DNA of 64,000 nucleotides, from NCBI RefSeq assembly GCF_002837275.1, contig NZ_NXIF01000038.1, positions 1-64,000 on the forward strand, read 5' to 3'. This document shows, piece after piece, positions 6,778 through 62,025 of the stretch (within the stretch, counting starts at the first letter, position 1; each line of letters starts with the position of its first letter). The position numbers and the translations under genes were made by a program. The notes beneath the pieces are model-generated. The model made no database searches and was not told where the DNA came from. It saw only the letters and a program-made list of their open reading frames with translations. Source of the stretch: Malaciobacter halophilus. Lineage in GTDB: Bacteria; Campylobacterota; Campylobacteria; Campylobacterales; Arcobacteraceae.

Positions 6778-7954
6778 TTTATCAAACCAATTAAGACCAA
6801 CAACTCTACAAGAGTTTGTTGGTCAATCTCATATAATAGGAAAAGACAAAGCTTTATATAAGCTTTTGATGAAAAAAGAGATACCACATCTATTTTTTTA
6901 TGGGAAGCCTGGCACTGGAAAAACTACTCTTGCAAAAATAATTGCAAAACACATAAATAGTGACTATTACTATTTTAATGCAACTACAATTAAAATTGAT
7001 GAATTAAGAAAAGTTTTTGATAAATATAAAAACTCTTTAATAAAGCCTATTGTTTTTATAGATGAAGTTCATAGATTATCAAAAAATCAACAAGAGGTAC
7101 TGTTACCAATAATGGAGAGTTATCAAGCTATAATTATTGGAGCAAGTACAGAAAATCCATTTTTTACTCTTACTTCTGCTATTCGTTCAAGATCTTTTTT
7201 ATATGAGTTTAAGCCACTTACAAATATTGAATTAGATGGAATAATACAAACAGCACTAAAAAATAGTGGTATAACGCTAAGTAAAGAGGCAAGAGAGTAC
7301 TTAATTGCATCAAGTAGTGGTGATGCTAGGGCAATGTTAAATTTGCTTAATTTTGCTTCTAAAATAGAAAACAATATAAGTTTTGATACTTTAAAAGAGT
7401 TGCGTTCAAATGTGATAGGTGATGGAGTTAGTTCAAGTGATAGTCACTATGATTTAGCAAGTGCAATGATAAAATCTTTAAGGGGTTCAGATATTGATGC
7501 AGCACTTTACTATTTAGGAAGATTAATCAATGGTGGTGAAAGTGTTGATTTTATAACTAGAAGAATGGTTATTTTTGCAAGTGAAGATATTGGTAATGCA
7601 AATCCAAATGCTTTGAATTTAGCAGTAAGTACAATGCATGCTTGTAATAAGATAGGTTATCCTGAAGCTAGAATAATACTTGGACAATGTGCAGTATATT
7701 TAGCCTCATCTCCAAAATCTAATAGCTCATATAATGCAATTAATAAAGCGTTAGCTGATATAAAACATGGTAGAATTTTACAGATACCAAAACATATAGA
7801 TTCACTGCATAAAGGGTATAAATATCCTCATGATTATGGTGGATGGGTAGAACAAGAGTATCTTGAAGAGCCAGTAAGTTATTATGAAAGTCAAAATATA
7901 GGTTTTGAAAAGAATTTAAATGAATGGCTTAAGAAAATTAAAGGAAAAGAATAA
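6767..7954 (+). CDS. rarA: Replication-associated recombination protein A (AAA+ ATPase)
   Basis: RarA/MgsA is a clamp-loader-like AAA+ ATPase acting at stalled forks. The protein (about 395 aa) has LRPTTLQEFVGQSHIIG at its N-terminus, Walker A GKPGTGKTT (about 46-54), Walker B FIDEVHR, and the C-terminal RarA region with FASEDIGNANP and the ending HDYGGWVEQEYL. The start is ambiguous: GTG 6764, ATG 6767 and ATG 6770 are consecutive in frame, all overlapping the end of rluB. Its stop TAA shares a base with the ATG of the next gene. Confidence 0.9.
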   Translation: MMIDLSNQLRPTTLQEFVGQSHIIGKDKALYKLLMKKEIPHLFFYGKPGTGKTTLAKIIAKHINSDYYYFNATTIKIDELRKVFDKYKNSLIKPIVFIDEVHRLSKNQQEVLLPIMESYQAIIIGASTENPFFTLTSAIRSRSFLYEFKPLTNIELDGIIQTALKNSGITLSKEAREYLIASSSGDARAMLNLLNFASKIENNISFDTLKELRSNVIGDGVSSSDSHYDLASAMIKSLRGSDIDAALYYLGRLINGGESVDFITRRMVIFASEDIGNANPNALNLAVSTMHACNKIGYPEARIILGQCAVYLASSPKSNSSYNAINKALADIKHGRILQIPKHIDSLHKGYKYPHDYGGWVEQEYLEEPVSYYESQNIGFEKNLNEWLKKIKGKE

Positions 7955-8484
7955 TGGATTTAATGCAATATTACTTATGGATAGTAGTATTTCATATCAT
8001 GGCTATGATGTCATGGATGGCAATGCTTTTTTATCAGCCAAGATTGTATGTATATCACACAGAACATAAAAATAAACCAGATTTTGTAGAGGTTGTGAAG
8101 ATTCAAGAGTATAAGATGTATAAATATATTGGTCTTCCTGCAATGTGGGCAACAGTAATAAGTGGTTTACTAATGATATATTTAAGACCAGAGATGCTTA
8201 ATCTAAATGACCCATGGCTTTTTGCAAAACTATTTTTTGCAGGACTTTTAGTAGCTTACTCTTTTTCTATGGAGTATTTTAGAAAAAGATTAGAAAAAGG
8301 TATTTATCCAAAAAGTGGTAACTTCTTTAGAGCTTATAATGAAGTTCCTACTGTTTTATCTATTTTAATAGTTGGATATGTAGTAGTAAAGACTTTTTCT
8401 TTATTATTCACTTTTATTACCCTACTTTTTGGTGCTTTTATAATCTATAAAGTACTAAGACAAAAACCAAAAGATGAATCATGA
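7954..8484 (+). CDS. hemJ: Protoporphyrinogen oxidase HemJ
   Basis: HemJ oxidises protoporphyrinogen IX to protoporphyrin IX in the inner membrane, replacing HemG/HemY in many Campylobacterota. The 176-aa protein has four to five predicted membrane helices and the HemJ signature FHIMAMMSWMAMLFYQPRLYVYH (about 13-35), with the conserved His and the PRLxVYH motif. Length matches the family (~140-180 aa). Start overlaps the rarA stop (TAATG); the end overlaps the next gene by 4 bases (ATGATG), showing tight operon packing. Confidence 0.85.
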   Translation: MDLMQYYLWIVVFHIMAMMSWMAMLFYQPRLYVYHTEHKNKPDFVEVVKIQEYKMYKYIGLPAMWATVISGLLMIYLRPEMLNLNDPWLFAKLFFAGLLVAYSFSMEYFRKRLEKGIYPKSGNFFRAYNEVPTVLSILIVGYVVVKTFSLLFTFITLLFGAFIIYKVLRQKPKDES

Positions 8485-48067: not shown

Positions 48068-48096
48068 AAAAAGTCTTCATAAAAGAAGACTTTTTA
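48068..48096 (-). terminator. Terminator of the RND efflux operon
   Basis: A perfect 11-bp stem (AAAAAGTCTTC and complement) around a 6-base loop, followed on the minus strand by T5-A-T4. It overlaps the stop of the RND pump gene. Confidence 0.85.
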
Positions 48097-51000
48097 ATGA
48101 GAAATATGAGTTTCTAAGATTTTATCAGTTCTTTTTAAAGCTAATATATAAAAAATAGCAGGAATAATTATAAGTGTTAAAAAGGCAGAAGAAACCATTC
48201 CTCCAATCATAGGAGCAGCAATTCTTTGCATTACTTCACTTCCTACTCCATTTATATACATAATAGGAATAAGACCTCCTAAGATAGCAAATAAAGTCAT
48301 AAGTTTTGGTCTTAGTCTTAAAACGGCACCTTTAAAAACTGCATGGAAAATATGTTCTTTAGTAAATTGACATCCTTTTTGTTTTAATTCAATCATTGCT
48401 TCATGCAAATATACAAGCATAACTATTGAAGTTTCTGCTGCAACACCAAGAAGAGCAAGAAAACCTACAATAACTGCAATTGAAATATTAAAGTTTAAAT
48501 ATTCAAGATAAAAAATACCACCTGTTAGTGCAAAAGGAAGAGTAAAGAAAATAATAAATGTATATGTTACATTTTTTAGTGCAAAATAGATTAATATAAA
48601 TATAATCATTAATGTTAAAGGAATAATATATGTAAGTTTTTGCATAGCTGATTCTAAATATTCACTTTGTCCTGCCCACTCAAAATAGTAACCAGTTGGT
48701 AACTGTATATCTTTTAAAATTTCTTTAGCACTGTCTTTATACTCTTTTGCACTAACTCCACTTTTAGGAGTAATATAGATAAAGTTTACATTTAATGCCT
48801 TTTCTGATTTTATAACAGAAGGACCTTCTTCATACTTTAAATTAGCAAATAGTTTTAAAGGCTGGAAACCTAATTTTGTTTTTATTTGAAGATTTTGTAA
48901 ACTTGTAATATCTTCTCTTTGTGTAGTTTCATATCTTAAACTAATAGGGTATCTTTCTAAACCTTTATAAAAAGTAGATACTTGTGTTCCTGAAACTCCT
49001 AAAGATATTGTATTTAAAACATCATCTTTAGTAATAGAGTATCTTGAAAGCATTTTATCATCAATATCAATATTTAAATAGTATCCAGAGTTTATTTTAT
49101 CAGATGATACTGCAAGAGTTTTATCATAGTTTTTTAATTTTTGTTCTATCTTAAGTGCATAGTTTTCTAAAGTTTCATGGTCATTTCCATATAGTTTTAT
49201 TCCAAGAGGAGTTCTAATACCAGTTAAAAGCATATCTATTCTTCCTCTAATAGGATAAGTCCAAGAGTTAATAAGTCCTGCAACTCTTAGTTTTTCATCC
49301 ATTTCTTGCATAAGTTTTTTGTATGTCATACCTTCTCTCCACTTCTCTTGAGGTTTAAAAGTAACAATTGTTTCAATCATTGCAAGTGGTGCAGGGTCTG
49401 TTGCTGTATTAGCTCTTCCTGCTTTTCCAAATACTGTATCAACTTCTGGAAAAGATTTTAGAATTTTATCTGTTTTTTGAGTTAACTCTTTTGACAAATC
49501 AACACCTAAACCATAAGGAGTTACAGGCATATACATAAAAGTTTGTTCATTCATCATAGGCATAAACTCCCAGTTTTGTTTTTTATAAACTGGATATGCT
49601 AAGATTATAGTTCCTAAAAATAAGGCTACAATTAAATATCTAAATCGTAAAGATAGTTTTAATAGTGGTGAATAAAGTTTTACAAAAAATCTATTTAAAA
49701 GATTTTTATCTTCACTTAAAATTTTACCTTTAATAAAAAATATCATTAAAATAGGAACAATAGTTATTGATAAAATAGCTCCACTAATCATAGCAAATGT
49801 TTTTGTAAAGGCAAGGGGAGTAAAAAGTCTTCCTTCTTGTCCTGTTAAAGCAAAGATTGGTAAGAAAGATACAACAACCAAAATCAAAGCAAAAAATATT
49901 GGACGTCCTACTTGTTTTGCAGATTTTATAATTATTTCAACTCTTTGTTTATTTGAAATATCTTGATTCTTTTGTAAATGTTTATGGGCATTTTCTACCA
50001 TTACAATTGTTGCATCAACCATAGCTCCAATTGCGATTGCAATACCACCTAAACTCATGATATTTGAACCCATTCCAAATATTTTCATAAATAAAAAAGT
50101 TAAAAGAACAGTAATTGGAAGAGTAAGAATAATAATTAGTGCTGACCTTACATGAAATAAAAATAGTGCTGTAACAACCATTACTATAATAGACTCTTCT
50201 ATTAATGTAGATTTTAAAGTATCAATGGCTTTATCAATTAATGAGCTTCTATCATATGTTTCAACTACTTCAACTCCATTAACCTTTAAACTTTCTAGTT
50301 TCTTTTTTACATTTTTGATTACTTTATAAGGATTTTCTCCATATCTAACAATTACAATCCCTCCAACAGTTTCTCCTTGGCCATTTAAATCTGCCATTCC
50401 TCTTCTGTTTGTTGAGGTTATATTTACATTTGCAATATCTTTAATCTTTAAAGGAATATTATTTTGAGTTTTTATAGTAATATTTTCAATATCATAAATA
50501 CTTTGTAAATAACCTCTTGCTGTAATAATATGTTCATAACCATTTTCTAAAATTATTCTTCCACCCTTATCATTATTACTCTTTTCAAGGGCTTTTTTTA
50601 TCTCATCAATACCAATATTGTATTGCACCATTTTGTTTTGATTTAAAGTAATTTCGTAGTTTTTTATAAATCCACCAATTGATGCAATTTCACTAACTCC
50701 ATCTACTCCTAAAAGAGCATATTTATAATAGTAATCTTGTAAAGTTCGTAACTCATCTAAACTTTTTGTATCTGATTTAAGTGCATACTCATAAGCCCAG
50801 CCAACTCCAGTAGCATCAGGCCCAATAGTAATTTTTGCATTTGAAGGAAATTCACCTTGAAGTTGAGATAGTTGCTCTAATATTCTATTTCTTGATTCAT
50901 AAAGGTCTGTATTATCCTTAAAGATAATATAAATTAATGCATTAGAAAAAGAACTCATAGCTCTTACTGTTTCAATATTTGGTAAACTCATCAAGTTTGA

Positions 51001-51210
51001 TATAAGAGGATATGAAACTTGTTCTTCAATGGTTTTAGGACTTTGTCCTGCCCATTTAACCTGTACAATCACTTGTGGAGGAGATAAGTCAGGTAAAGCA
51101 TCTAAACTAGTATTTTTAACAGCCCAAAAAGAACCTAAAGTTAATACTATAATAGAAAAAAGAACTAAAAATTTGTTTTTTATACTATAAGATATTATAT
51201 TCTCAACCAT
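48094..51210 (-). CDS. czcA: CusA/CzcA-type heavy-metal RND efflux pump
   Basis: A 1038-aa inner-membrane proton-driven pump with 12 helices and two large periplasmic loops. It is of the heavy-metal group: GGIAIAIGAMVDATIVMVENAHKHL, TDPAPLAMIETIVTFKPQEKWREGMT and IRGRIDMLLTGIRTPLGIK match CusA. The first two of the three Met used by E. coli CusA for Cu(I)/Ag(I) have equivalents (PLAM, RIDM); the third position reads SRYSITKDDV, Ile instead of Met. Cu/Ag is still the most likely substrate, given the neighbours; other metals remain possible. Last gene of the crdA-crdB-czcB-czcA-like operon. Confidence 0.92.
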   Translation of the reverse strand: MVENIISYSIKNKFLVLFSIIVLTLGSFWAVKNTSLDALPDLSPPQVIVQVKWAGQSPKTIEEQVSYPLISNLMSLPNIETVRAMSSFSNALIYIIFKDNTDLYESRNRILEQLSQLQGEFPSNAKITIGPDATGVGWAYEYALKSDTKSLDELRTLQDYYYKYALLGVDGVSEIASIGGFIKNYEITLNQNKMVQYNIGIDEIKKALEKSNNDKGGRIILENGYEHIITARGYLQSIYDIENITIKTQNNIPLKIKDIANVNITSTNRRGMADLNGQGETVGGIVIVRYGENPYKVIKNVKKKLESLKVNGVEVVETYDRSSLIDKAIDTLKSTLIEESIIVMVVTALFLFHVRSALIIILTLPITVLLTFLFMKIFGMGSNIMSLGGIAIAIGAMVDATIVMVENAHKHLQKNQDISNKQRVEIIIKSAKQVGRPIFFALILVVVSFLPIFALTGQEGRLFTPLAFTKTFAMISGAILSITIVPILMIFFIKGKILSEDKNLLNRFFVKLYSPLLKLSLRFRYLIVALFLGTIILAYPVYKKQNWEFMPMMNEQTFMYMPVTPYGLGVDLSKELTQKTDKILKSFPEVDTVFGKAGRANTATDPAPLAMIETIVTFKPQEKWREGMTYKKLMQEMDEKLRVAGLINSWTYPIRGRIDMLLTGIRTPLGIKLYGNDHETLENYALKIEQKLKNYDKTLAVSSDKINSGYYLNIDIDDKMLSRYSITKDDVLNTISLGVSGTQVSTFYKGLERYPISLRYETTQREDITSLQNLQIKTKLGFQPLKLFANLKYEEGPSVIKSEKALNVNFIYITPKSGVSAKEYKDSAKEILKDIQLPTGYYFEWAGQSEYLESAMQKLTYIIPLTLMIIFILIYFALKNVTYTFIIFFTLPFALTGGIFYLEYLNFNISIAVIVGFLALLGVAAETSIVMLVYLHEAMIELKQKGCQFTKEHIFHAVFKGAVLRLRPKLMTLFAILGGLIPIMYINGVGSEVMQRIAAPMIGGMVSSAFLTLIIIPAIFYILALKRTDKILETHISH

Positions 51211-51220
51211 AACTTATTTC

Positions 51221-52222
51221 CTACCAATCTTCATCATTGTCTTCATAAAGACCATTTGTAACTGCATCACTATCAAGTAAAAATAGTGAATTATTTATTA
51301 CTTTTTGTCCCTGTTTTAGACCACTTAGAATTTGATATTTATTTGATGAAACTCTTTTTACTTCAACCTCTATTGGTTCAAACTCACTTTTTGAAATTGG
51401 TTCAAAAACATAATATTTATTTGCTTTATTTAATACTGCTGTTTTAGGCAGAGTTAGCATACTGCTATTTGCAATTTCTACTTTTACTTTTGCAAACATA
51501 TTTGGATAAATCTTTTTGTCTTTATTATCTACAGTCATTCGTATATCAACAGTTTTACTTTTTGAATCAATATTTGGGTAAATAAAATCAATTTTTGAGT
51601 CAATAGGCTGCTTTAATCCATCAAAAAATATTTTTGTTCTTTGACCTACTTTTATATCTTTTAAATCACTTTCATAAATTTTTGCAACTACCCAAAGCTT
51701 ATCTATATTTGCAAGTTGTAAAAGAAGATTCCCTTTTTTTGCAAAAGATTTATAGTTTATATTTTTTTGTAAAACAATAGCATTTGTAGGAGAGTAAAAA
51801 GTAACGTCTTTAAACTCATTTTTTAAGTTTTTAAGCTTATTAATCTCTTTTTTATTTATAGCTAAAACTTCCAGTTTATCAAGGGTACTTTTGTATAGTT
51901 GTTTATCTAAACTTTTTGCAACTTTTAACTCTTTTGTAATATTATAAATATCATCAGAATAGATAGAAAATAGAGCTTGACCTTTTTTTACATCCATATA
52001 TAACCTATTTGCATTTAGTTTTGTAATATATCCATCAAACCTAGTTACAATATCAATTACTTTATCTTCGATAATTAAACTATTTGCATAAAACTCTTTT
52101 GTAAAAGATATATTCTCTTTTTTTACGGTTGTTATTTTTTTATTAAAAAGTTGTTCCACTTCAATTATTTTTGCATTTGCTAAAGTTAATCCAACTAAGC
52201 ATATAGTAAGTAGCTTTTTCAT
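51221..52222 (-). CDS. czcB: RND periplasmic adaptor (CusB/CzcB-like)
   Basis: A 333-aa membrane-fusion protein with signal peptide (to about residue 17), a barrel-sandwich and helical hairpin (ANRLYMDVKKGQALFSIYSDDIYNITKEL), the beta-barrel segment LWVVAKIYESDLKDIKVGQRTKIFFDGL, and a C-terminal MPD-type region. It bridges the inner-membrane pump and the outer-membrane channel. It lacks the N-terminal Met-rich extension of E. coli CusB. One base separates its start from the next gene's stop. Confidence 0.88.
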   Translation of the reverse strand: MKKLLTICLVGLTLANAKIIEVEQLFNKKITTVKKENISFTKEFYANSLIIEDKVIDIVTRFDGYITKLNANRLYMDVKKGQALFSIYSDDIYNITKELKVAKSLDKQLYKSTLDKLEVLAINKKEINKLKNLKNEFKDVTFYSPTNAIVLQKNINYKSFAKKGNLLLQLANIDKLWVVAKIYESDLKDIKVGQRTKIFFDGLKQPIDSKIDFIYPNIDSKSKTVDIRMTVDNKDKKIYPNMFAKVKVEIANSSMLTLPKTAVLNKANKYYVFEPISKSEFEPIEVEVKRVSSNKYQILSGLKQGQKVINNSLFLLDSDAVTNGLYEDNDEDW

Positions 52223-53407
52223 CTATTTCCCTTCATAATATATTGCTTTTGCTAAAGCAGTAAAGTATTTTGTTTTTTCATCTAGTGCTGCAATTTTCAA
52301 ACTAATAGTTTTATTTAGATTTTGAATTATTTTTGTTGTATTGTTTTTAAATCTATTATCAATATTTAAACTCTTTTCAATAGCTTTTTGTAGCAAAACA
52401 ATATCTTTTGTGATTAATTCATGATTTATATAACTATTATCTAGCTCTTTTTGTAATATTTTGTTTGTAATGATAAAGTTTTGTTTTAAAGTTTGTAAAT
52501 CATCTTTTGTTTTTAAATATTGAAGTTGTGCTTTTTTAACTTTTATATTTTCTGTATTATAAATAGATAAAGGAATAGAAACAGAAATATTTACATAATC
52601 TTGATACTCTGTTCTATTTGCATAAGTTGCATTTAGTTTAATATCAGAAGTTTTTGAGGCTTCTTCAAATGCTTCTTGTTGTTTATTTAACTTTAGTTGT
52701 TGTTGCAAAGCCTTTATTTTAGGATGATTATTTGCTTTTAATTTAAGATATTTTTTATTAATTGTTGTATCTATATCAATATGATTTATATTTTTATATG
52801 TTATTTCTTCTAAATTTAGTTTAAGTGTTTGAAGGTTTGTATCTAAATTATTTAATACAATATCAAAATTCTTTGTTGCAATTTTTGTATCAAATAGAGA
52901 TTTAACATCTATTTTAGAGGTTTGATACTTATAATTTTGTAATTTTTCAATCTTTTTTAGATTACTCTTTTGTTTTAATATAAAATCTCTTTTTTCTTTT
53001 AAGATAGCTATTTTATAAGCAAGTTCATAAATTTTTGATTTTAATAATAGTTTTTTATCCTCTAAACTAAGAGCTAAAATAGTTTTATTTGTAATTTGAA
53101 TTGATTCATTAATCTCTAGTTTATCAGTTATAGGAATAGCCTGAGTTATTCCTATTGACTGTGCTTGCATTGGTTCTAAATTTCTTTTATCATAGTTTTC
53201 ATTTGTATGAATACCTGTTAAACCTAAAGATAGAGTTGGATTTGTGTATTTTGTTGCAAGCATAATATTCTCATTTGCAATCAAAATAGACTTTTCTATA
53301 CTTTTAAGTTCACTGTTTTTTAATATGGCACTATTTATTAAAGTATCAATACTAGTTGCGGTTAAACTTGATATAAAAAGAGTGATTACAAATAGAGACT
53401 TTTTCAT
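52223..53407 (-). CDS. TolC-family outer-membrane channel (CusC/CrdB-like)
   Basis: A 394-aa outer-membrane efflux protein: signal peptide, then two long coiled-coil repeats typical of TolC-family channels (NPTLSLGLTGIHTNENYD; ANHPKIKALQQQLKLNKQQEAFEEASKTSDIKLNATYANR). Low in Cys and with no lipobox, unlike E. coli CusC. Gene order FixH/CrdA-like, this gene, CzcB, CzcA is the same as the Helicobacter copper operon HP1326-HP1329. It overlaps the previous stop by one base. Confidence 0.85.
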   Translation of the reverse strand: MKKSLFVITLFISSLTATSIDTLINSAILKNSELKSIEKSILIANENIMLATKYTNPTLSLGLTGIHTNENYDKRNLEPMQAQSIGITQAIPITDKLEINESIQITNKTILALSLEDKKLLLKSKIYELAYKIAILKEKRDFILKQKSNLKKIEKLQNYKYQTSKIDVKSLFDTKIATKNFDIVLNNLDTNLQTLKLNLEEITYKNINHIDIDTTINKKYLKLKANNHPKIKALQQQLKLNKQQEAFEEASKTSDIKLNATYANRTEYQDYVNISVSIPLSIYNTENIKVKKAQLQYLKTKDDLQTLKQNFIITNKILQKELDNSYINHELITKDIVLLQKAIEKSLNIDNRFKNNTTKIIQNLNKTISLKIAALDEKTKYFTALAKAIYYEGK

Positions 53408-53790
53408 TATAAGTTCACACTTCCTCTTAATTTGTGAACTTTTCCATCACTTGTTTTAAATTTTAATTGATATTGCCATGTTCCACCCATAGAGAAATTA
53501 ATATCAATTTTATATTTGTCTTTTACAAGTTTAGCCTTGTCTTTAAACTCCATATATGGCATACCTGGCATCTCTGGCATATAAAATTTTGCTTTTGCCT
53601 TTGCATTTGTAACTACCTTACCATCTTTAAAAATTTGGATATATAAGCTATTATTTCCAACAACTAATGATTTTTCTGATGTAAGTTTTACCTCATAACC
53701 ATTTTTATTTCCAGATTGTGAAAGTGAGGATGCACTTGCAATACCAAATGCTAAGATTAGAATAGAAAAAAGTTTTAAAAAACTTTTCAT
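53407..53790 (-). CDS. FixH/CrdA-like periplasmic copper-resistance protein
   Basis: A 127-aa exported protein with a FixH/YtkA-like immunoglobulin fold (NGYEVKLTSEKSLVVGNNSLYIQIFKDGKVVTNAKAKAKFYMPEMPGMPYMEF). The MPEMPGMPYM cluster is a plausible Cu(I) site. It starts a gene order like Helicobacter crdA-crdB-czcB-czcA, so it is a CrdA-type protein by position. It follows the kinase gene by 40 bases and has an AGGAG site; the operon may read through from the two-component genes. Confidence 0.75.
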   Translation of the reverse strand: MKSFLKLFSILILAFGIASASSLSQSGNKNGYEVKLTSEKSLVVGNNSLYIQIFKDGKVVTNAKAKAKFYMPEMPGMPYMEFKDKAKLVKDKYKIDINFSMGGTWQYQLKFKTSDGKVHKLRGSVNL

Positions 53791-53830: not shown

Positions 53831-55033
53831 TTATTGTGCAGTTAACGTGGAATTTAGTGTCAAAGTAAAAGTTGTTCCAACATTTTGTGTAGAATCAACA
53901 TCAACATCAATATTATACTCTTTACATATTGTATATACTATATTTAAACCTATTCCAAACCCCCCTTGAACATCATTTGCTCTATAGAATCTTTTGAAAA
54001 TATCTTTTAAATTCTTTTTATCAATTCCTATTCCACTGTCTTTAACTATAAGTTTATTATTTTTTAAAATAATTGTCACATTTCCATCAATTTTATTATA
54101 CTTTATTGCATTTGATATAAGATTGTTACTTAATCTAATGAAGCTCTCTTTATCTATATAAAAAGTAGTAGGTTCAATTTGTGTGATTATCTCTATTCTT
54201 TTTTTAGAAGCTAAGGCTTTAAAGTATTCAATTTGTTCATTTAAAATCTCATCAATTTTTAAAATTTTTGGCGACTCTTTTTTCTTATCTTCTAAGAAAA
54301 GATAGATTAAGTCTTTATATATTTCTGATATTCTTTTTGCACTTAGATTTATTCTTTGAAGATTTTTTTCACTAAGTGATGAACCTTTGCTTGTACACAT
54401 TAAAATAGCTGTAATTGGTGTATTTAGTTCATGTGTTGTATCTTTTATAAAGTTATTTAACTTAAGTCTTTCATTTGTAATAGGTTTGATAAACATTTTT
54501 GCTAAATAAAACCCAGTTACAAATAAAAATGCAAAGATTAACAAAAAGGAGATAAAAATTTTCTCTTTTAATTGAAGTATCTTTTTATAAAAAATATTCT
54601 CTTTTATAACTACATAATTAACCCCTAGATGTCCTAATGCAGAATCATCAATAAGAATAAAACTATTTTTATATTGCTTTATCTTTTTTGTAAAATCTAT
54701 ATCATCTTCAATATTACCTACAAGTCTTTTAAATTTGTGATTATATAATGCAAAATCAAAATCAATATTTTTTCTAATTTTTTCAGGATTGATTTTTTGG
54801 TTTGTCATATGTGCATATATTATAGTTGAAGAGATTTTAGATGCAACACTTTTCATATTTGATGTAATCAAATCATAATATAAGTTTGATTCAACTTTGT
54901 AAAAAAGCCATGCAATAATTGTAAGTAAAATAAATGATGAGCCAAGATATAGGCTTAGAAATCTAACTAATGCAGATTTTTCACTTCTTGTTAAAACTAT
55001 AACCAACTCCTTTTCTTGTTTGAATATACTCAT
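53831..55033 (-). CDS. Sensor histidine kinase of the copper-type two-component system
   Basis: A kinase of up to 400 aa with TM1 (about 26-47), a periplasmic sensor of about 110 residues, TM2 (about 160-180), an H-box DTTHELNTPITAIL (His near 207) and an ATPase domain with FGIGLNIVYTICKEYNIDV. It is of the EnvZ/CusS type, not the HQW type of the other three kinases here. The start is uncertain: GTG 55036/ATG 55033 lie 50 bases inside the regulator gene without a good ribosome site, whereas a strong AGGAG (55007-55011) lies only six bases before an in-frame ATA. Location between copper efflux and bufferin-like genes suggests Cu sensing (CrdS/CusS-like). Confidence 0.85.
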   Translation of the reverse strand: MSIFKQEKELVIVLTRSEKSALVRFLSLYLGSSFILLTIIAWLFYKVESNLYYDLITSNMKSVASKISSTIIYAHMTNQKINPEKIRKNIDFDFALYNHKFKRLVGNIEDDIDFTKKIKQYKNSFILIDDSALGHLGVNYVVIKENIFYKKILQLKEKIFISFLLIFAFLFVTGFYLAKMFIKPITNERLKLNNFIKDTTHELNTPITAILMCTSKGSSLSEKNLQRINLSAKRISEIYKDLIYLFLEDKKKESPKILKIDEILNEQIEYFKALASKKRIEIITQIEPTTFYIDKESFIRLSNNLISNAIKYNKIDGNVTIILKNNKLIVKDSGIGIDKKNLKDIFKRFYRANDVQGGFGIGLNIVYTICKEYNIDVDVDSTQNVGTTFTLTLNSTLTAQ

Positions 55034-55640
55034 CACTTAAGATTTTTCGTAAATTCTTTATATAAGTTCTAAGAGTTGAAGAACTTGGAGTCTCTTCATA
55101 TCCCCAAACATTTGATATAAGTTCATCATGGCTTACAATTTTATTTGCATTGTTTATTAAGTATATTAAGATTTTTGATTCTTTTTGTGGTAAATGATGA
55201 ATAATCCCATCGTTATTAAGTATTAAATCTTTTGTGTCAAAGGTAATATTTTCATCAATTATTAAACTATTTGCATCAATATTAAAAGTTTTTTTAATAT
55301 TTTCAATTCTTAATCCTAACTCTTCAAGCTCAAAAGGTTTTTTAATATAATCATTACAACCTACATCAAAACCTTTTTTTAAATCATCAATTTGATTTAG
55401 CGAAGTAATAAATATAGAAGGTGTTGTAATACCCTCTTGTCTTAATCTTTTTAAAATTTCAAAGCCATTTATATTTGGAACATTTACATCTAAAAGTAAT
55501 AAATCATAAATATTTGAAAATAGATTACTTAAAGCATCTTCTCCATCATAGGTTGAAGTTACTGTAAACTCTTTAGTTTCAAGATATTCTGTGATAATTT
55601 CATTTAAAATAAGGTCATCTTCTAATAATAGTATATTCAT
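54981..55640 (-). CDS. OmpR-family response regulator (CrdR/CusR-like)
   Basis: A 219-aa regulator: receiver (EDDL; phospho-Asp in LLLLDVNVPNING; Thr/Ser in FITSL; Lys in IKKPF) and winged helix (LPQKESKILIYLI; ending KGVGYSFNKK). First gene of the minus-strand copper unit and divergent from yceI. The intergenic region carries a TACACA direct repeat with 11-bp period at the yceI promoter. Paralogue of the orphan regulator at 47109-47768. Confidence 0.9.
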   Translation of the reverse strand: MNILLLEDDLILNEIITEYLETKEFTVTSTYDGEDALSNLFSNIYDLLLLDVNVPNINGFEILKRLRQEGITTPSIFITSLNQIDDLKKGFDVGCNDYIKKPFELEELGLRIENIKKTFNIDANSLIIDENITFDTKDLILNNDGIIHHLPQKESKILIYLINNANKIVSHDELISNVWGYEETPSSSTLRTYIKNLRKILSDEYIQTRKGVGYSFNKK

Positions 55641-55723: not shown

Positions 55724-55759
55724 GTTTTTATAAGAAAAATGACACGAGAAGGAGATATT

Positions 55760-56341
55760 ATGAAGTTCACATCTAAGGTTTTAGCAGGATTGTTAATGCT
55801 AGTAGGTTTATTAAGTGCATCGCCACATGCAATTGATAAAGCACATTCAGAAGTAGGGTTTTCAGTTAAGCACCTTATGATTACAAATGTAAAAGGTGAG
55901 TTTAAAGAGTTTGATGCAAAAGTAGATTTTGATTATAAAACTAAAGTGTTTAAATCTTTAGAAGCGACAATTAAAACAAAATCAATAGATACAGGTATTG
56001 AAAAAAGAGATAATCATTTAAGAAGTGCAGATTTCTTTTTAGCACAAAAATATCCAGAACTTAAGTTTGTAATGAAATCATATGCTAAAAAAAGTGATGA
56101 TGAAGGTATCATGATTGGTGATTTAACAATAAGAGGTGTTACAAGAGAAGTAAAATTAGAAGTTGAGATTGGTGGAACAATAAAAGACTTAGAGGGTAAT
56201 AATAGAGTTGGTTTCTCACTTGAAGGGGAAATTGATAGAACAAAATATGGACTTAAATGGAATAAAGCCTTAGAGTTTGGTGGAATTGCAGTAAGTGAAG
56301 AAGTAGATATTGAAGTTCAAGTTCAAGCAGTAGAACTTTAA
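55760..56341 (+). CDS. YceI-family periplasmic lipocalin-like protein
   Basis: A 193-aa exported protein with signal peptide (MKFTSKVLAGLLMLVGLLSAS) and the YceI beta-barrel pattern IDKAHSEVGFSVKHLMITNVKGEFKEFDAKVDFD and NHLRSADFFLAQKYPELKFVMKS. YceI barrels bind isoprenoids such as polyprenyl quinones, and some members bind other small ligands. I start at the ATG 55760, preceded by AAGGAG; an in-frame ATG at 55739 is upstream of that site. First gene of a plus-strand operon with the Cys-rich precursor and its modification enzymes. Confidence 0.9.
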   Translation: MKFTSKVLAGLLMLVGLLSASPHAIDKAHSEVGFSVKHLMITNVKGEFKEFDAKVDFDYKTKVFKSLEATIKTKSIDTGIEKRDNHLRSADFFLAQKYPELKFVMKSYAKKSDDEGIMIGDLTIRGVTREVKLEVEIGGTIKDLEGNNRVGFSLEGEIDRTKYGLKWNKALEFGGIAVSEEVDIEVQVQAVEL

Positions 56342-56370: not shown

Positions 56371-56709
56371 ATGATGAAAAGTAATACAAAATTAAAGCTA
56401 GCAGGAGCTATGCTAGGCGCAGCACTTACTACAACAACAGCAATTGCAGGAAATGGGGGAGCTTGTGGTGCTGGTAAATGTGGTGCAGACACGAAAAAAA
56501 TAGAAAAGAAAGGTGCTTGTGGCTCTGGTAAATGCGGTGGAGATATGCAAAAAGAGATGAAAAAAAGCATGAAAGGCTCTTGTGGTGCTGGTAAGTGTGG
56601 AGGTGACATGAGAAGTAGCGATATGAAGAATGATATGCAAAATAGTAGTATGAGAAAAGATAAAAAAGTTACTGGTTCTTGTGGAGCTGGTAAATGTGGA
56701 AGTAATTAA
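56371..56709 (+). CDS. Cys-rich RiPP precursor, bufferin-like, with four CGxGKCG motifs
   Basis: A 112-aa exported peptide. A signal peptide ends near Ala26 (ATTTTTAIA-type run). The mature part holds eight Cys, all in four copies of C-G-A/S-G-K-C-G: Cys32/37, Cys50/55, Cys71/76 and Cys104/109. They are joined by charged, Met-rich linkers (GGDMQKEMKKSMKG; GGDMRSSDMKNDMQNSSMRKDKK). GKCG resembles the EGKCG motif of bufferins, secreted peptides whose Cys are oxidised by a DUF692 enzyme and which sequester copper. Such an enzyme is encoded nine bases downstream. Predicted role: periplasmic Cu(I) chelation. That it is modified is inferred from context. Confidence 0.8.
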   Translation: MMKSNTKLKLAGAMLGAALTTTTAIAGNGGACGAGKCGADTKKIEKKGACGSGKCGGDMQKEMKKSMKGSCGAGKCGGDMRSSDMKNDMQNSSMRKDKKVTGSCGAGKCGSN

Positions 56710-56718
56710 GAAATTAAT

Positions 56719-57540
56719 ATGATTAGTTTAAAAGGTTGTGGTTTAGGTTTAAGAAGTGATTTTTTATTAAACTTAGAGCATAGTAATTTCTCACCTGATT
56801 GGTGGGAGATTACTCCTGAAAACTGGATGCATATGCCAAGAGTTTATGAAAAAGCTTTTGAAAAAATAGTGTTTTCTAAGCCTACTGTTGCTCATGGTTT
56901 ATCTTTATCTATTGGTTCAGCTGACAATTTAAATAGAAGTTTTGTAAAAAAAATGAAAGAGTTTTTAGATAGATATAATATAGAGTTTTATTCTGAACAC
57001 CTTAGTTTCTCATCTTTTAATAAAAAGCAAACTTATGAACTTTTACCTTTACCTATGACAAAAAGAATGGTAAATATTATAAGTGATAGAATAAAAGAGG
57101 TTGAGGATATAATTCAAAGAAATCTAATTTTAGAAAATGCAACATACTATTTTGTTCCTTATGCAAAGATGCAAGAAGTTGATTTTATAAATGAAGTATT
57201 AGAAAAATCAGGTGCAAAACTGCTTTTGGATGTAAATAATGTATTTGTAAACTCTGTAAATCACTCTTTTAAAGCAAGAGAGTTTATAGACCAAATTGAT
57301 AAGAGTAAAGTTGCATATATGCATATAGCAGGACACTACTTTGATGAAGAATCAAATCTTAAAATTGATTCTCATGGTATGCCAATTTGTAGTGGAGTTT
57401 GGAAACTTTTACAGTACACTTTAAATCAGGTAAATGCTCCTGTTATGATTGAAAGAGATAACAATATACCACCTTTACAAGAACTTGTAACTGAATATAA
57501 TAAGATGAAAAAGATTTATAAAAGGTTTAATCATGCCTAA
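56719..57540 (+). CDS. bufB: DUF692 multinuclear non-heme iron oxidase (MNIO; BufB/MbnB-like)
   Basis: A 273-aa TIM-barrel enzyme of the DUF692/MNIO family, which uses two or three iron ions and O2 to convert Cys in a precursor to heterocycles (oxazolone/thioamide in methanobactin, thiooxazole-type groups in bufferins). Family start KGCGLGLRSDF is present. Candidate metal ligands: Glu34 (ENW), His59 (AHG), His94 (SEH), Glu139 (LILEN), Asp171 and Asn174 (DVNN), His202/His206 (MHIAGH), Asp217/His219 (DSHG) and Glu245 (IERD). Full family length. It lies between the precursor and the partner gene, with 8-base overlap to the latter. Confidence 0.9.
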   Translation: MISLKGCGLGLRSDFLLNLEHSNFSPDWWEITPENWMHMPRVYEKAFEKIVFSKPTVAHGLSLSIGSADNLNRSFVKKMKEFLDRYNIEFYSEHLSFSSFNKKQTYELLPLPMTKRMVNIISDRIKEVEDIIQRNLILENATYYFVPYAKMQEVDFINEVLEKSGAKLLLDVNNVFVNSVNHSFKAREFIDQIDKSKVAYMHIAGHYFDEESNLKIDSHGMPICSGVWKLLQYTLNQVNAPVMIERDNNIPPLQELVTEYNKMKKIYKRFNHA

Positions 57541-58225
57541 TATAGAAGAAGATATTCAAAATGAGTTTATCAATATAGTGACAAAAAGAAACAAAGAAGA
57601 GTTTAAAGATGCATATAATGTATATCAAAAGTTAGTCTATTATAGATACGAAGAGGTTATAAAAAATACTTTCATAGAGTTTAAAAAGTATATATCTGCT
57701 AAAGAGTTAGAAGAGTCTATAAGAGTTTTTTTAAAAGAACCTTGTAGCACAGAGTTTGTTTGGAAAATAGCAAATGACTATAGAAAGTTTGTAAAAAAAA
57801 ATAGACTATTTCATGATAGAAAATATCTTTATGACCTTTTATATTTTGATTGGATTGAACTTGAATTATCAATGCAAGAGTATGAATATGAACAGATAAA
57901 AGAGTTTCATTATGAGAATAGTTATAAACTCTCAAATAGTTGTAGATTAAAAAGATTTGATTATGATATTTTAAATGCAAATATAGAAAAAAAAGAGGAG
58001 AATTTTGCAATTATTTATTATGATTTTAAAGATGATGAGGTTAAATTTAGACAAATAAATCCTGTACTTTTTTATCTTTTGAAGAAAATTAATAAAACAA
58101 AAAATATTCAAAGTCACCTTTTAGAGCTTTGTTTTGAAAATGAGTTAGATTTTCAAGAAGCAAAAGAGGTTTTATATGAGCCTTTAAGTGAGTTAAATAG
58201 TAACGGAGTTTTTTTCTTTAAATAA
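57533..58225 (+). CDS. bufC: DUF2063-type RiPP recognition partner (BufC/MbnC-like)
   Basis: A 230-aa cytosolic protein, mainly helical in its first half: NVYQKLVYYRYEEVIKNTFIEFKKYI and FVWKIANDYRKFV, then DLLYFDWIELELSM, which recall the DUF2063 N-terminal helices. The C-terminal half is beta-rich (FAIIYYDFKDDEVKFRQINPVLFYLLKKI). DUF2063 proteins bind DUF692 enzymes and present the precursor. Overlap with the MNIO gene supports a stable complex. The sequence match is weaker than for the enzyme, so the family call rests partly on context. Confidence 0.75.
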   Translation: MPNIEEDIQNEFINIVTKRNKEEFKDAYNVYQKLVYYRYEEVIKNTFIEFKKYISAKELEESIRVFLKEPCSTEFVWKIANDYRKFVKKNRLFHDRKYLYDLLYFDWIELELSMQEYEYEQIKEFHYENSYKLSNSCRLKRFDYDILNANIEKKEENFAIIYYDFKDDEVKFRQINPVLFYLLKKINKTKNIQSHLLELCFENELDFQEAKEVLYEPLSELNSNGVFFFK

Positions 58226-58275: not shown

Positions 58276-59712
58276 ATGGAAAATGAAACTTTATATTTAA
58301 AAATACTAAACAATCTTCCCCAAACAATAATATTAATTGTCAAAGATGATAAGATAATAAACTCTTATGGTGAAGTTTTTGATGAGATTAATAATACTAA
58401 ATTAAGTGAACACTTTAGTAAAGTTACTTATAACAAATTGATGTTGCTAAAATTAAAAAAAATAGATAGCTTAATTATTTGTTGGAATAAAAAAGATTAT
58501 GAAGTCTCTTGCCATGATGAAATTTATTATTTCAAAGACATTACTAAATATAGAAATATGCACTTACAGTTAAAGAAAAGTCTTAAAGACTTAAGATCTA
58601 AAAAAGAAGAACTACGAGCTGTTTTTGATTTAGCAGGAAATGGAATATCAATTTTAAATGAAAAGGGTACTTTCCTTTATGCAAATAAGTTTTTCCAAAC
58701 AATGATGGAATATACAATGGAAGAGTTATACAATGAATCTTGTATCTCTTTATCTTCTCCTGAATATGCACAACCTAGTAAAACAGCAGTACAAAGAGCA
58801 ATACAAGAAGGTATTGTTGAAAGATTTAGAAAAATATGTGTGACTAAATCGGGAAAACAAATTAATGCTAGTATGTCTTTAAGTTATATAAAAAGTACAA
58901 ATGAAATAGTAATGATTACTTCGGATATAACAGAAGATATAAAATATCAAGATGATTTAAAAAGAAGAATAAATCATGAAGTTAAAAAAAGAACACAACA
59001 GTATGAAATAATGTGTCATCAATCAAGATTGGCTTCTATGGGTGAAATGATTGAAGCAATTGCTCATCAATGGCGACAACCTTTAAATAGTTTAGGTATT
59101 ATTACTCAAGGCTTAAGACATTTATCAAATAGTGAAAATTTTGATTTTAATTTATTAAATGAGATTGAAAATGAAATGATTGAAAAAATAAATTTTATGT
59201 CTGAAACAATTGATGATTTTAGTAATTTTTTTAAAATCTCTAAAGAAAAGAAATATTTCAATATATTAAATAGTGTAAAAGATACAATTAAATTAGTAGA
59301 TATACAGCTGAAAAATGAAAATATCACTCTTAATATAAATATTGAAGATGGGGTTAATTTAGAGTTTTATGGTTTAGAAAACGAGTTTAGACAAGCTTTA
59401 TTAAATATAGTAGATAACTCTTTGGATGTACTTATAAGAAGAAAACAGCATGAAGGATTTATTAACATTGATTTTGTTCAAAATGGAAATTTTCTTGAGC
59501 TTAGTATTTCAGATAATGCTGGTGGAATTTCTGAAAAAAATTTACAAGAAATATTTAAACCTTACTTTACTACAAAAGAAGATGGGAACGGTATAGGATT
59601 GTATATGTCAAAAGTAATTATAGAAAAGAATATGAATGGAAGTTTATCGGCTAGAAATAATGAAAATGGGGCAGTATTTACTATCTCATTAAAATCAGAA
59701 GAGCAAAAATAA
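58276..59712 (+). CDS. Soluble PAS histidine kinase
   Basis: A 478-aa kinase without transmembrane helices: an N-terminal PAS-like region, a short coiled coil (about 95-115), a PAS domain (LRAVFDLAGNGISILNEKGTFLYANKFFQTMM, about 115-230), a second coiled coil, H-box EAIAHQWRQPL (about 259-269) and an ATPase domain with NGIGLYMSK. A cytoplasmic PAS sensor suggests a redox, sulfur or gas signal. No clear ribosome binding site precedes the ATG. The stop shares a base with the regulator start. It likely controls the SQR-like gene downstream. Confidence 0.87.
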   Translation: MENETLYLKILNNLPQTIILIVKDDKIINSYGEVFDEINNTKLSEHFSKVTYNKLMLLKLKKIDSLIICWNKKDYEVSCHDEIYYFKDITKYRNMHLQLKKSLKDLRSKKEELRAVFDLAGNGISILNEKGTFLYANKFFQTMMEYTMEELYNESCISLSSPEYAQPSKTAVQRAIQEGIVERFRKICVTKSGKQINASMSLSYIKSTNEIVMITSDITEDIKYQDDLKRRINHEVKKRTQQYEIMCHQSRLASMGEMIEAIAHQWRQPLNSLGIITQGLRHLSNSENFDFNLLNEIENEMIEKINFMSETIDDFSNFFKISKEKKYFNILNSVKDTIKLVDIQLKNENITLNINIEDGVNLEFYGLENEFRQALLNIVDNSLDVLIRRKQHEGFINIDFVQNGNFLELSISDNAGGISEKNLQEIFKPYFTTKEDGNGIGLYMSKVIIEKNMNGSLSARNNENGAVFTISLKSEEQK

Positions 59713-60395
59713 TGGAAAAATTACATATTAAACTACAACCTTTAACCCTATTAATTGTAGAAGATGATGAAAGTACTTTAAAATGGCTAGAAAGAATACT
59801 TTTAATCTATTTTAAAGAAGTAAAAACTGCTAGTAATGCTATGGATGCCCTTGAGATATTTAATAATCAAAATATAGATGTAGTAATAGCTGATATTCAA
59901 ATACCAGAAGTTGATGGCTTACATTTTTTGCAAAAAATTGCTATTGTTAATCCACATTGTATTCGAATAGTTATGACTGCTTTTAATAATCAAATCTATT
60001 TAAATAGAGCAATTGATGCAGAAGTAAATTTTTATTTTAAAAAACCAATTGATATTGATGAATTATTGGTTTCTATATCATTAAGTGTAAAAAACAAGCC
60101 TATGTTTTTAAATAAAGTAGAATTAAAAGAAAACTATACTTATGATTTTGTTCAAAAAGTAATAATCAATAAAAATACCAAAATAAATCTAACAAAAAAA
60201 GAGTCTTTACTTTTTGAGTTTTTATATGAAAACAAGAACTCTATTGTAAGTTTAGAACAAATTGAAAATGTAGTTTGGCAAGAACCAGCAACAAATGATG
60301 CTATTAGAATGGTAGTTTCAAGTCTTAGAAAAAAACTCTATAAAAACTCCATTGAAAATATAAAAGGGTTTGGATACAAACTTTCTTTAGAGTAA
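59712..60395 (+). CDS. OmpR-family response regulator of the SQR module
   Basis: A 227-aa regulator: receiver (VEDDES; phospho-Asp in VVIADIQIPEVDG; Thr in VMTAF; Lys in FKKPI) and winged-helix domain (LTKKESLLFEFLYE; ending IKGFGYKLSLE). Three direct repeats with 11-bp period begin at its last codons, in front of the SQR-like gene, the predicted target. Confidence 0.9.
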   Translation: MEKLHIKLQPLTLLIVEDDESTLKWLERILLIYFKEVKTASNAMDALEIFNNQNIDVVIADIQIPEVDGLHFLQKIAIVNPHCIRIVMTAFNNQIYLNRAIDAEVNFYFKKPIDIDELLVSISLSVKNKPMFLNKVELKENYTYDFVQKVIINKNTKINLTKKESLLFEFLYENKNSIVSLEQIENVVWQEPATNDAIRMVVSSLRKKLYKNSIENIKGFGYKLSLE

Positions 60396-60472: not shown

Positions 60473-61663
60473 ATGAAGAAAAGAATTCTTATTGTTGGTG
60501 GTGGTACAGCTGGTACTATGACAGCAAATAATTTAGCAAAAAAATTGATGTATGAAATTGATAAAGATGAAATTGAAATAACAATGATTTCAAACTCAAA
60601 ATATCATTATTATAGACCTGGTGCTATGTATGTGGCTTTTCATAAAGCTTCTGGACAGGAGTTTGTAAGAGAACAAAGAACTCTTTTAATGCCTGAAATA
60701 AACTTTTTAGTAGATGAAGCTGTACAGATTGATACTAATGAAAATTTTGTAAAAGGTAAGAGTGGAACTATATATAAATATGATTTTGTAATTCTTGCAA
60801 CAGGTTGTGAAGTAGCAGTTGATAGAATTCCTGGATTAAAAGAGGGTGGAGATTGGTTTTACTCTTATGATGGAGCAAAAAAATTAGCAAAAAAATTTGG
60901 GCAGTTAAAAAAAGGAAGAGTTTTAGTAACTGTAAACTTCCCTAAAACTCCAAATGTTCCCCATCAGTGTGGTATTGCTCCTATTGAAACTACAATTATG
61001 TTACATGACCATTTAAAAGAACAGGGATTAAGAGATGATATAGAGATTGTATATACTTATCCAAAAGTTGCACAAGCAGTTACAGATGGTCTTTTCTTAC
61101 AAGGACCTACATCAAAAGTTTTACCTTCAATCTTTGATGGCATAGGTGTAAAGTATAAAACTAGTTTTACATTAAATAAAGTAGACCCTGATAAAAAAAT
61201 TGCTTATTCTCAAGAGGGTGAAGAGATTGAGTTTGATATATTAATGTCAACTCCTCCATTTATTGCAACTAAGTTTATTAGAGAATCAGGCTTATCAAAA
61301 GCAGTAGATGATGAAGGATGGTTACCAACTGATAAAAAAACTCTTAAGGTTAAAGGCTATGATAATATTTATACTTTAGGGGATACTGTTGATTTACCAG
61401 TTTCTAAAGCAGGAGGTACTATTCATAATCAAACAGATGTAGTTGCAGATAATATTGCTTCTGAAATTAGATATGGGTACCCAACTGAAAGTTATGATGG
61501 AAAAGTTATTGCAATTGCTCAGATGGGGTTATCTTGTGGAATGCCACTTTGGTATGACTATAAAGAAGATGTAAAGCCAACACCTTGTAGTAAACTAGGT
61601 AGTTTTGTTAGAAAAGGTTTTAATATGGGTATTTATTGGGCAGCAGCTCGAGGAATGGTATAG
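60473..61663 (+). CDS. Sulfide:quinone oxidoreductase-like flavoprotein
   Basis: A 396-aa FAD enzyme of the SQR/flavocytochrome c sulfide dehydrogenase family. The N-terminal dinucleotide fold is ILIVGGGTAGTM. Cys112 (ATGC), Cys166 (PHQCGIAP) and Cys355 (LSCGMP) match the three redox Cys of SQRs; Cys166 and Cys355 are the probable polysulfide-forming pair. A second FAD contact is YTLGDTVDLPVSKAGGT. The C-terminus is amphipathic for membrane contact. It would oxidise sulfide to sulfur and reduce quinone, either for energy or for detoxification. It is followed by a DUF1641 gene, a common SQR neighbour. Confidence 0.85.
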   Translation: MKKRILIVGGGTAGTMTANNLAKKLMYEIDKDEIEITMISNSKYHYYRPGAMYVAFHKASGQEFVREQRTLLMPEINFLVDEAVQIDTNENFVKGKSGTIYKYDFVILATGCEVAVDRIPGLKEGGDWFYSYDGAKKLAKKFGQLKKGRVLVTVNFPKTPNVPHQCGIAPIETTIMLHDHLKEQGLRDDIEIVYTYPKVAQAVTDGLFLQGPTSKVLPSIFDGIGVKYKTSFTLNKVDPDKKIAYSQEGEEIEFDILMSTPPFIATKFIRESGLSKAVDDEGWLPTDKKTLKVKGYDNIYTLGDTVDLPVSKAGGTIHNQTDVVADNIASEIRYGYPTESYDGKVIAIAQMGLSCGMPLWYDYKEDVKPTPCSKLGSFVRKGFNMGIYWAAARGMV

Positions 61664-61671
61664 GAGAGATT

Positions 61672-62025
61672 ATGAGTGAAAAAGTAGAAGTTTTAAAAAC
61701 TAAAGAGATGCAAGAACTTGAAGAAAAGTTTTCAATGCTAGTTCAAACAGGAAGAATTGATAATATTATTGATTTACTAGCGGTTTTATCAGATAATATT
61801 GAGATGACAACAGCTCCTATGGTTGATAAGATGGTAGGAACAGTAGATAATTTAGCAACTGCAGGATTTGTTACTCAAAATGCTGTTAGATATGCAAATA
61901 GAGAAATAAAGAAAAATGAAATACCTTCACTATTTGGCTTACTTAAGTTATTAAAAGATGAAGAGACACGAAAAGGTTTAGCTTTTATTCTTCATTTAAC
62001 AAAAGGTATTGGTAAACAAGTATAA
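61672..62025 (+). CDS. DUF1641 protein linked to SQR
   Basis: A 117-aa protein with the DUF1641 helical pattern TGRIDNIIDLLAVLSDNIEMTTAPMVDKMVGTVDNLATAG and ending FGLLKLLKDEETRKGLAFILHLTKGIGKQ. DUF1641 genes are often beside sulfide oxidoreductases and formate dehydrogenases; their role is not known to me. The ATG at 61672 has AGGAG upstream; an in-frame ATG at 61636 lies inside the SQR-like gene. Terminator follows. Confidence 0.82.
   Translation: MSEKVEVLKTKEMQELEEKFSMLVQTGRIDNIIDLLAVLSDNIEMTTAPMVDKMVGTVDNLATAGFVTQNAVRYANREIKKNEIPSLFGLLKLLKDEETRKGLAFILHLTKGIGKQV

Follow-up and report, generated by a model that had tools for sequence, protein, structure and literature searches.

The cassette and its genomic setting

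The window, the 64,000-nucleotide stretch of the Malaciobacter halophilus genome analysed here, contains three genes packed on the forward strand as one operon (Table 1). The precursor and enzyme genes are separated by 9 bases (56710-56718), and the enzyme and partner genes overlap by 8 bases (57533-57540). The packing, spacing and coordinates given by the initial annotation were reproduced from the ORF positions. The genome (G000; 2.75 Mb in 111 contigs) has one PF05114 protein and one protein matching the HvfA model, both at this cassette.

Table 1 Features of the HvfABC-type cassette and of its surroundings in the window
Feature	Position	Strand	Remarks
CusC-CusB-CusA-type heavy-metal RND efflux pump	48094..53407	-	TIGR00914, 1010 bits (CusA)
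YtkA-domain secreted protein	53407..53790	-	PF13115
Two-component system, divergent	53831..55640	-	response regulator 54981-55640, histidine kinase 53831-55036
YceI-family secreted protein	55739..56341	+	PF04264; 29 bases upstream of precursor
HvfA-type precursor	56371..56709	+	112 aa; Sec signal peptide at about residues 1-27 (KLKLAGAMLGAAL...AIA), then four units
Unit 1, GACGAGKCG	56458..56483	+	direct repeat, family D2
Unit 2, GACGSGKCG	56512..56537	+	direct repeat
Unit 3, GSCGAGKCG	56575..56600	+	direct repeat
Unit 4, GSCGAGKCG	56674..56699	+	direct repeat
HvfB-type MNIO (DUF692)	56719..57540	+	273 aa; sole PF05114 protein of the genome
HvfC-type partner, PME type 1 (helical DUF2063 domain and winged-helix RRE)	57533..58225	+	230 aa
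Second histidine kinase and response regulator	58276..60395	+	50 bases downstream; in few relatives only

The enzyme matches PF05114 with 295 bits (cut-off 25). Its best NCBIfam family is HvfB (NF003818), with 318 bits, under the equivalog cut-off of 360. The bufferin maturase model BufB gives 254 bits and the MbnB model 44 bits (cut-off 325). The protein aligns with 3BWW, TglH and MbnB (7DZ9), and its putative iron-binding His, Glu, Asp and Asn residues are in register with 3BWW and MbnB. Across 42 HvfB homologues, residues H59, H94, E139, N140, D171, N173, H202, H206, D217, H219 and E245 show almost no variation; the DUF692 iron-ligand pattern had been noticed in the initial annotation. Individual residues among them are presumably iron ligands, as in MNIO structures generally. 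Strong purifying selection acts on HvfB, with dN/dS values between neighbours of 0.07-0.13.

The partner exceeds the cut-off of PF22106 (NGO1945_C; 30.7, cut-off 27) and stays just under that of DUF2063 (22.1, cut-off 27.2). Its sole NCBIfam match is HvfC (NF050145; 72 bits, under the cut-off of 142). Foldseek matched its AlphaFold model (pLDDT 87) to NGO1945 (3DEE, E 8e-9) and also to TglI (8HI7). No significant structural match of the model to MbnC (7dz9_C) was found. Its description as a DUF2063-type partner is supported.

The precursor passes the NCBIfam repeat model of the HvfA family, KCGExKCG_twice (NF050137; 38 bits, cut-off 19.5). It fails the full-length HvfA equivalog (NF050188; 22 bits, cut-off 95), and is thus a member of the family and not of the same equivalog. 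The family scan gave no DUF2282 match for the precursor, which had already been set apart from DUF2282-type bufferins; identity with Buf1, a DUF2282 bufferin with four conserved Cys, was rejected. The HMM check suggested for the three proteins thus returned HvfA-family, DUF692 and HvfC/NGO1945_C.

In 298 Campylobacterota genomes, a Cys-rich precursor immediately precedes the enzyme at all 14 full-length MNIO loci, and likewise at the Arcobacteraceae MNIO loci inspected. The pairing is therefore not due to chance. With a PF05114 enzyme, a secreted Cys-rich precursor and a PME-type-1 partner in Arcobacteraceae, the view of the locus as an MNIO RiPP operon in an Arcobacter-like genome stands. To judge from family models and partner fold, the trio is a cassette of the HvfABC (oxazolin/Buf_EGKCG/captophorin) type, and most likely makes a secreted, modified copper-binding peptide such as is known from Haemophilus and Neisseria. 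The proposal of a distinct or undescribed class does not hold, because the NCBIfam families, including the curated HvfA-family model passed by the precursor, the fold of the partner and the known chemistry of HvfBC and FonBC place the trio.

The cassette contains no DoxX gene, and the only DoxX of the genome is located on another contig (C40). DoxX is frequent, not universal, in HvfABC/oxazolin/captophorin operons. No Lactamase_B_2-like gene was recognised beside the window cassette; such a gene accompanies 54% of the clusters of the CxxxxC precursor family (PMC12452194). Plasmids of Moraxella (L118) and Acinetobacter (L119) also bear HvfABC-like cassettes, in which the repeats are AKCGEAKCG and a DoxX and a sigma factor are included; on the Moraxella plasmid, MNIO and partner are separated by an IS4 transposase.

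Upstream, the cassette adjoins a CusRS-YtkA-CusCBA-type cluster, and this is a syntenic site in much of Arcobacteraceae. In E. coli CusA, Met573, Met623 and Met672 form the copper/silver site. The window CusA has Met at all three positions aligned with these E. coli residues (3T51/3K07 alignment). CusA or CusB is found in 15 of 26 Arcobacteraceae MNIO loci (stretches of 8-18 kb), divergent or co-directional. CusA is followed by HvfA in the loci of genus g69 (Poseidonibacter), and YceI is located between CusA and HvfA in many Arcobacteraceae loci. YceI is unlikely to be a core part of the cassette, since synteny shows it at the Cus locus in genomes both with and without HvfABC. None of the kinase/regulator pairs of the window matched a copper-specific family at cut-off.

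The kinase/regulator pair downstream of the cassette is of PAS type. It is followed, at 60473-62025, by genes for a sulfide:quinone-reductase-like protein and a small protein. These downstream genes are probably a separate unit, because they are syntenic 3' of HvfABC in few species only, and a role of the second pair in the HvfABC system is uncertain.

Repeat units and signal peptide of the precursor

As initially annotated, the precursor is built from repeated CGxGKCG units. Its 8 Cys are found in four (A/S)CG(A/S)GKCG units, encoded by direct DNA repeats, and the linkers are rich in Lys, Met and Asp. The units are irregularly spaced, 18-33 residues apart, and AlphaFold predicts disorder (pLDDT 46). 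A beta-helical fold, as modelled for 17-residue EGKCG repeats, is thus unsupported.

Strict EGKCG repeats are not present. The position of the central Glu of EGKCG is occupied, in 79 Arcobacteraceae units, by Ala (72), Ser (6) or Lys (1) and never by Glu, and Ser or Ala precedes the first Cys in 71 of the 79. In other Campylobacterota, Lys precedes the first Cys in 25 of 32 units; Glu is lacking there too. In FonA, FonBC tolerate K3A and E1A (Glu to Ala at non-central positions), whereas E6A impairs turnover (PMC13097082). Because the lineage has Ala at the position of the impairing substitution, Arcobacteraceae HvfB is expected to have an adapted substrate preference, for a unit without the Glu and without the first Lys of EGKCG.

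In the window precursor, a signal peptide was recognised by inspection. Between species, identity of HvfA is 68% in the signal peptide and 69% in the mature part; for the neighbouring YceI, the values are 40% and 70%. A motif of the form [LIVMF]G-small-small-[LIMA] (LGAAL-like) is found in 39/39 precursors with HvfB adjacent and in 10/39 without, one of these (L158) off-register. Two precursors without adjacent HvfB (L167 and L172) come from genomes with an MNIO elsewhere, and both lack the motif. In G322, the HvfA copy linked to HvfB has the motif, which is missing from the one that lies with YceI at the MATE site. Mean hydrophobicity is higher in the signal peptides of orphans, precursors that stand without a maturase, at the Arcobacteraceae site (2.32 vs 1.90).

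The motif was defined post hoc, with the sequences already known, and its association with HvfB comes down, on the tree, to three to four independent events, of which two agree, one is unchanged and none is against. The counts are therefore not independent tests, and statistical proof that the motif depends on HvfB is not reached. Published experiments show that hardly any modification of HvfA takes place once the signal peptide is removed, and that the signal peptide of bufferins also serves as their leader (PMC13419390). The observations are consistent with the HvfA signal peptide serving as a leader whose motif is kept with HvfB and mostly lost in orphans. Since the motif is universal beside HvfB and mostly lost elsewhere, modification would matter where the enzymes exist.

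Precursors in genomes without the enzyme

PF05114 matches occur in 37 of the 104 Arcobacteraceae genomes. One of them, G321 (L097:7561-8349), has a partial match only (profile positions 109-216, 50 bits). This TIM-barrel-like protein is encoded inside a NeuB-like synthase/SDR/aminotransferase cluster and, on inspection, was not considered an HvfB. It was rejected as a candidate trans-acting MNIO/HvfB, and its match is likely a false positive of the family model. Without it, 36 genomes remain. The precursor profile search identified an HvfA-like gene in 55 Arcobacteraceae genomes; subtraction of the 36 HvfB genomes therefore leaves 19 of 55 without an HvfB-type MNIO. An HvfC profile search in 17 of the 19 orphan genomes gave no match (0/17; controls E 1e-60 to 1e-100). 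Several orphan genomes are single-contig and 99-100% complete; one orphan candidate (G335) is weak and was not read as an ORF.

The orphan HvfA-like genes (L114, L153-L169) are located at the same Cus-YceI-MATE site; the genome of L167, G322, has an HvfB operon elsewhere. Within the genus of the window, G241 (L114:12099-12410) has kept YceI and an intact HvfA and lacks HvfBC, and three further genomes show Cus-YceI-MATE without the cassette. In genus g2, 13 species are orphan and two have the cassette. At one locus (L159:7510-7827 and 7871-8152), two HvfA-like genes stand in tandem with no MNIO; the gene at 7510-7827, which is the downstream one, is lipoprotein-like (LTGC) with CNC and CSC motifs.

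In the orphan precursors, 126 of 142 Cys are in intact units, and dN/dS is 0.10-0.40, a sign of purifying selection, compared with 0.11-0.49 for the precursors of maturase-bearing species. Because the Cys units are intact and dN/dS falls within the range of maturase-bearing species, the orphan precursors are not decaying. Retention of the peptide does not depend on modification, given how many relatives have the precursor and lack the enzyme. A first impression that metallothionein-like CxC motifs are enriched in orphans was dropped after counting (3/39 vs 1/39, Fisher p 0.6).

At class level, an MNIO over cut-off is absent from 24 of the 38 genomes that carry an HvfA-like gene, some of the weaker HvfA-like matches being short and of low complexity. 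Outside Arcobacteraceae, secreted KCGxxKCG-type peptides were seen in such genomes (L174-L193), with short forms of 52-56 aa (L188-L190). In a published survey, Buf_EGKCG occurred without an MNIO in 67 of 2583 genomes (PMC12452194); the contrast with 19 of 55 is indicative only, because sampling and profiles differ.

Proposed function and relation to known systems

The window system shares with oxazolin/HvfABC of nontypeable Haemophilus influenzae the A-B-C operon, the Sec signal peptide, the paired Cys of KCG, the MNIO with its RRE partner and a precursor of the HvfA-family model. The Haemophilus repeat is AEGKCGEGKCG and its operon includes the DoxX-like HvfX, whereas the window has (S/A)CG(A/S)GKCG, no DoxX and a position beside CusCBA and YceI (PMC13419390). 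Lys-Cys 5-mer repeats and the MNIO-PME1 pair are common to the captophorins fontiphorin (FonABC) and gonophorin (NGO1945 partner, 3DEE), but in the window Glu 1 and 6 are replaced by Ala/Ser and the Lys before the first Cys by Ser/Ala. For its landscape the captophorin paper covers Pseudomonadota, and Campylobacter(ota) is not named in its text (PMC13097082). Buf_EGKCG/oxazolin type 1 also has a signal peptide, repeated GKCG and a downstream MNIO and PME1; its repeats are regular, of 17 residues, and modelled as beta-helical, unlike those of the window (PMC12452194). Bulbicupramide (mmrABC, Microbulbifer), for which Cu-binding is known, is likewise an EGKCG-type RiPP with a conserved leader and a variable number of Cys in repeats, and differs in repeat sequence and genomic setting (PMC12538549). 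Finally, the bufferins Buf1/Buf2 have an MNIO, a DUF2063 partner and a Sec signal peptide acting as leader, but other precursor families.

Haemophilus HvfBC and Fontimonas FonBC turn Cys into 5-thiooxazole, and the oxazolin structure was revised accordingly (PMC13419390, PMC13097082). EGKCG peptides bind copper (PMC13097082, PMC12538549). By analogy, once the precursor is made, HvfC would bind its signal peptide, which would act as leader, and position the precursor on HvfB. HvfB, a multinuclear iron oxidase, would then convert Cys of the CGxGKCG units into 5-thiooxazoles, with a loss of 4 Da each. The modified peptide would be exported by Sec, its signal peptide removed, and the mature peptide would be a periplasmic chelator of Cu(I), working side by side with the CusCBA-type pump encoded next to it. 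For the window system, the 5-thiooxazole chemistry, how many Cys are modified and the binding of copper are inferred from relatives.

As for the initial annotation of a periplasmic copper-binding peptide, the copper role is well supported indirectly, by the adjoining CusRS/CusCBA-type cluster and by characterised relatives. The methanobactin-like part of that annotation is not retained; the product is expected to be a 5-thiooxazole, as in bufferins and oxazolin, rather than an oxazolone-thioamide.

We consider it highly probable that the trio is an HvfABC-type RiPP cassette for periplasmic copper defence, including leader-guided 5-thiooxazole formation and Cu(I) chelation. Points counted against the HvfABC reading are the scores of HvfB and HvfC under their equivalog cut-offs, the failed full-length HvfA model, the absence of DoxX from the cassette, Ala at the position of FonA Glu6, the maturase-less relatives and the regulators without a copper-specific family. 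The last but one of these would suit a precursor that is an unmodified, metallothionein-like Cu(I)-thiol peptide, with HvfBC an optional improvement gained or lost several times. The orphans described above argue for it, by their number in Arcobacteraceae and in the class, the lack of HvfC in those searched, their common site, their intact units and their dN/dS. However, HvfBC is intact in the genome of the window, HvfB is under strong purifying selection, the leader motif is universal beside HvfB and mostly lost elsewhere, orphans do not have significantly more CxC motifs, and some other enzyme may act in orphan genomes. We therefore give this explanation a small probability.

Two other identities are far less probable still. 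A copper-acquisition chalkophore like methanobactin, carrying oxazolone-thioamide and secreted for uptake, would belong to the same enzyme superfamily, and a weak MbnB match is indeed seen. The enzyme is nevertheless far nearer to HvfB and BufB, the partner is of PME type 1 (HvfC/3DEE, not MbnC), the precursor has a Sec signal peptide and the neighbourhood points to efflux, not uptake; methanobactin identity was rejected. A bufferin of the Buf1/Buf2 type, suggested by the BufB score of the enzyme, is just as improbable in view of the missing DUF2282 match, the Cys in repeated GKCG units and the passed HvfA-family model.

With HvfABC retained as the preferred reading of the window, a wider proposal can be made for Campylobacterota: the CGxGKCG peptide may be a copper-defence peptide working with or without MNIO, HvfBC being detachable, the precursor gene being kept under selection at the copper-efflux locus of many species that have no maturase, and orphan signal peptides having drifted away from the leader motif to more hydrophobic, ordinary Sec signals. 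We hold the chances of this proposal to be evenly balanced.

HvfABC/captophorin copper peptides are thereby documented in Campylobacterota with a changed repeat, and their link to CusRS-CusCBA supports the copper-defence role. Since the lineage repeats carry natural counterparts of the E6A and K3A-like substitutions examined in FonA, the substrate rules of HvfB are testable on natural pairs. Caution is called for with names such as 'oxazolone/thioamide-modified RiPP metallophore', which databases attach to peptides of genomes without the modifying enzyme. The orphans raise the question of the role of the unmodified peptide and of what is gained by 5-thiooxazole formation. If the peptide does work with or without MNIO, the unmodified thiol and thiooxazole forms of one peptide would be comparable in nature.
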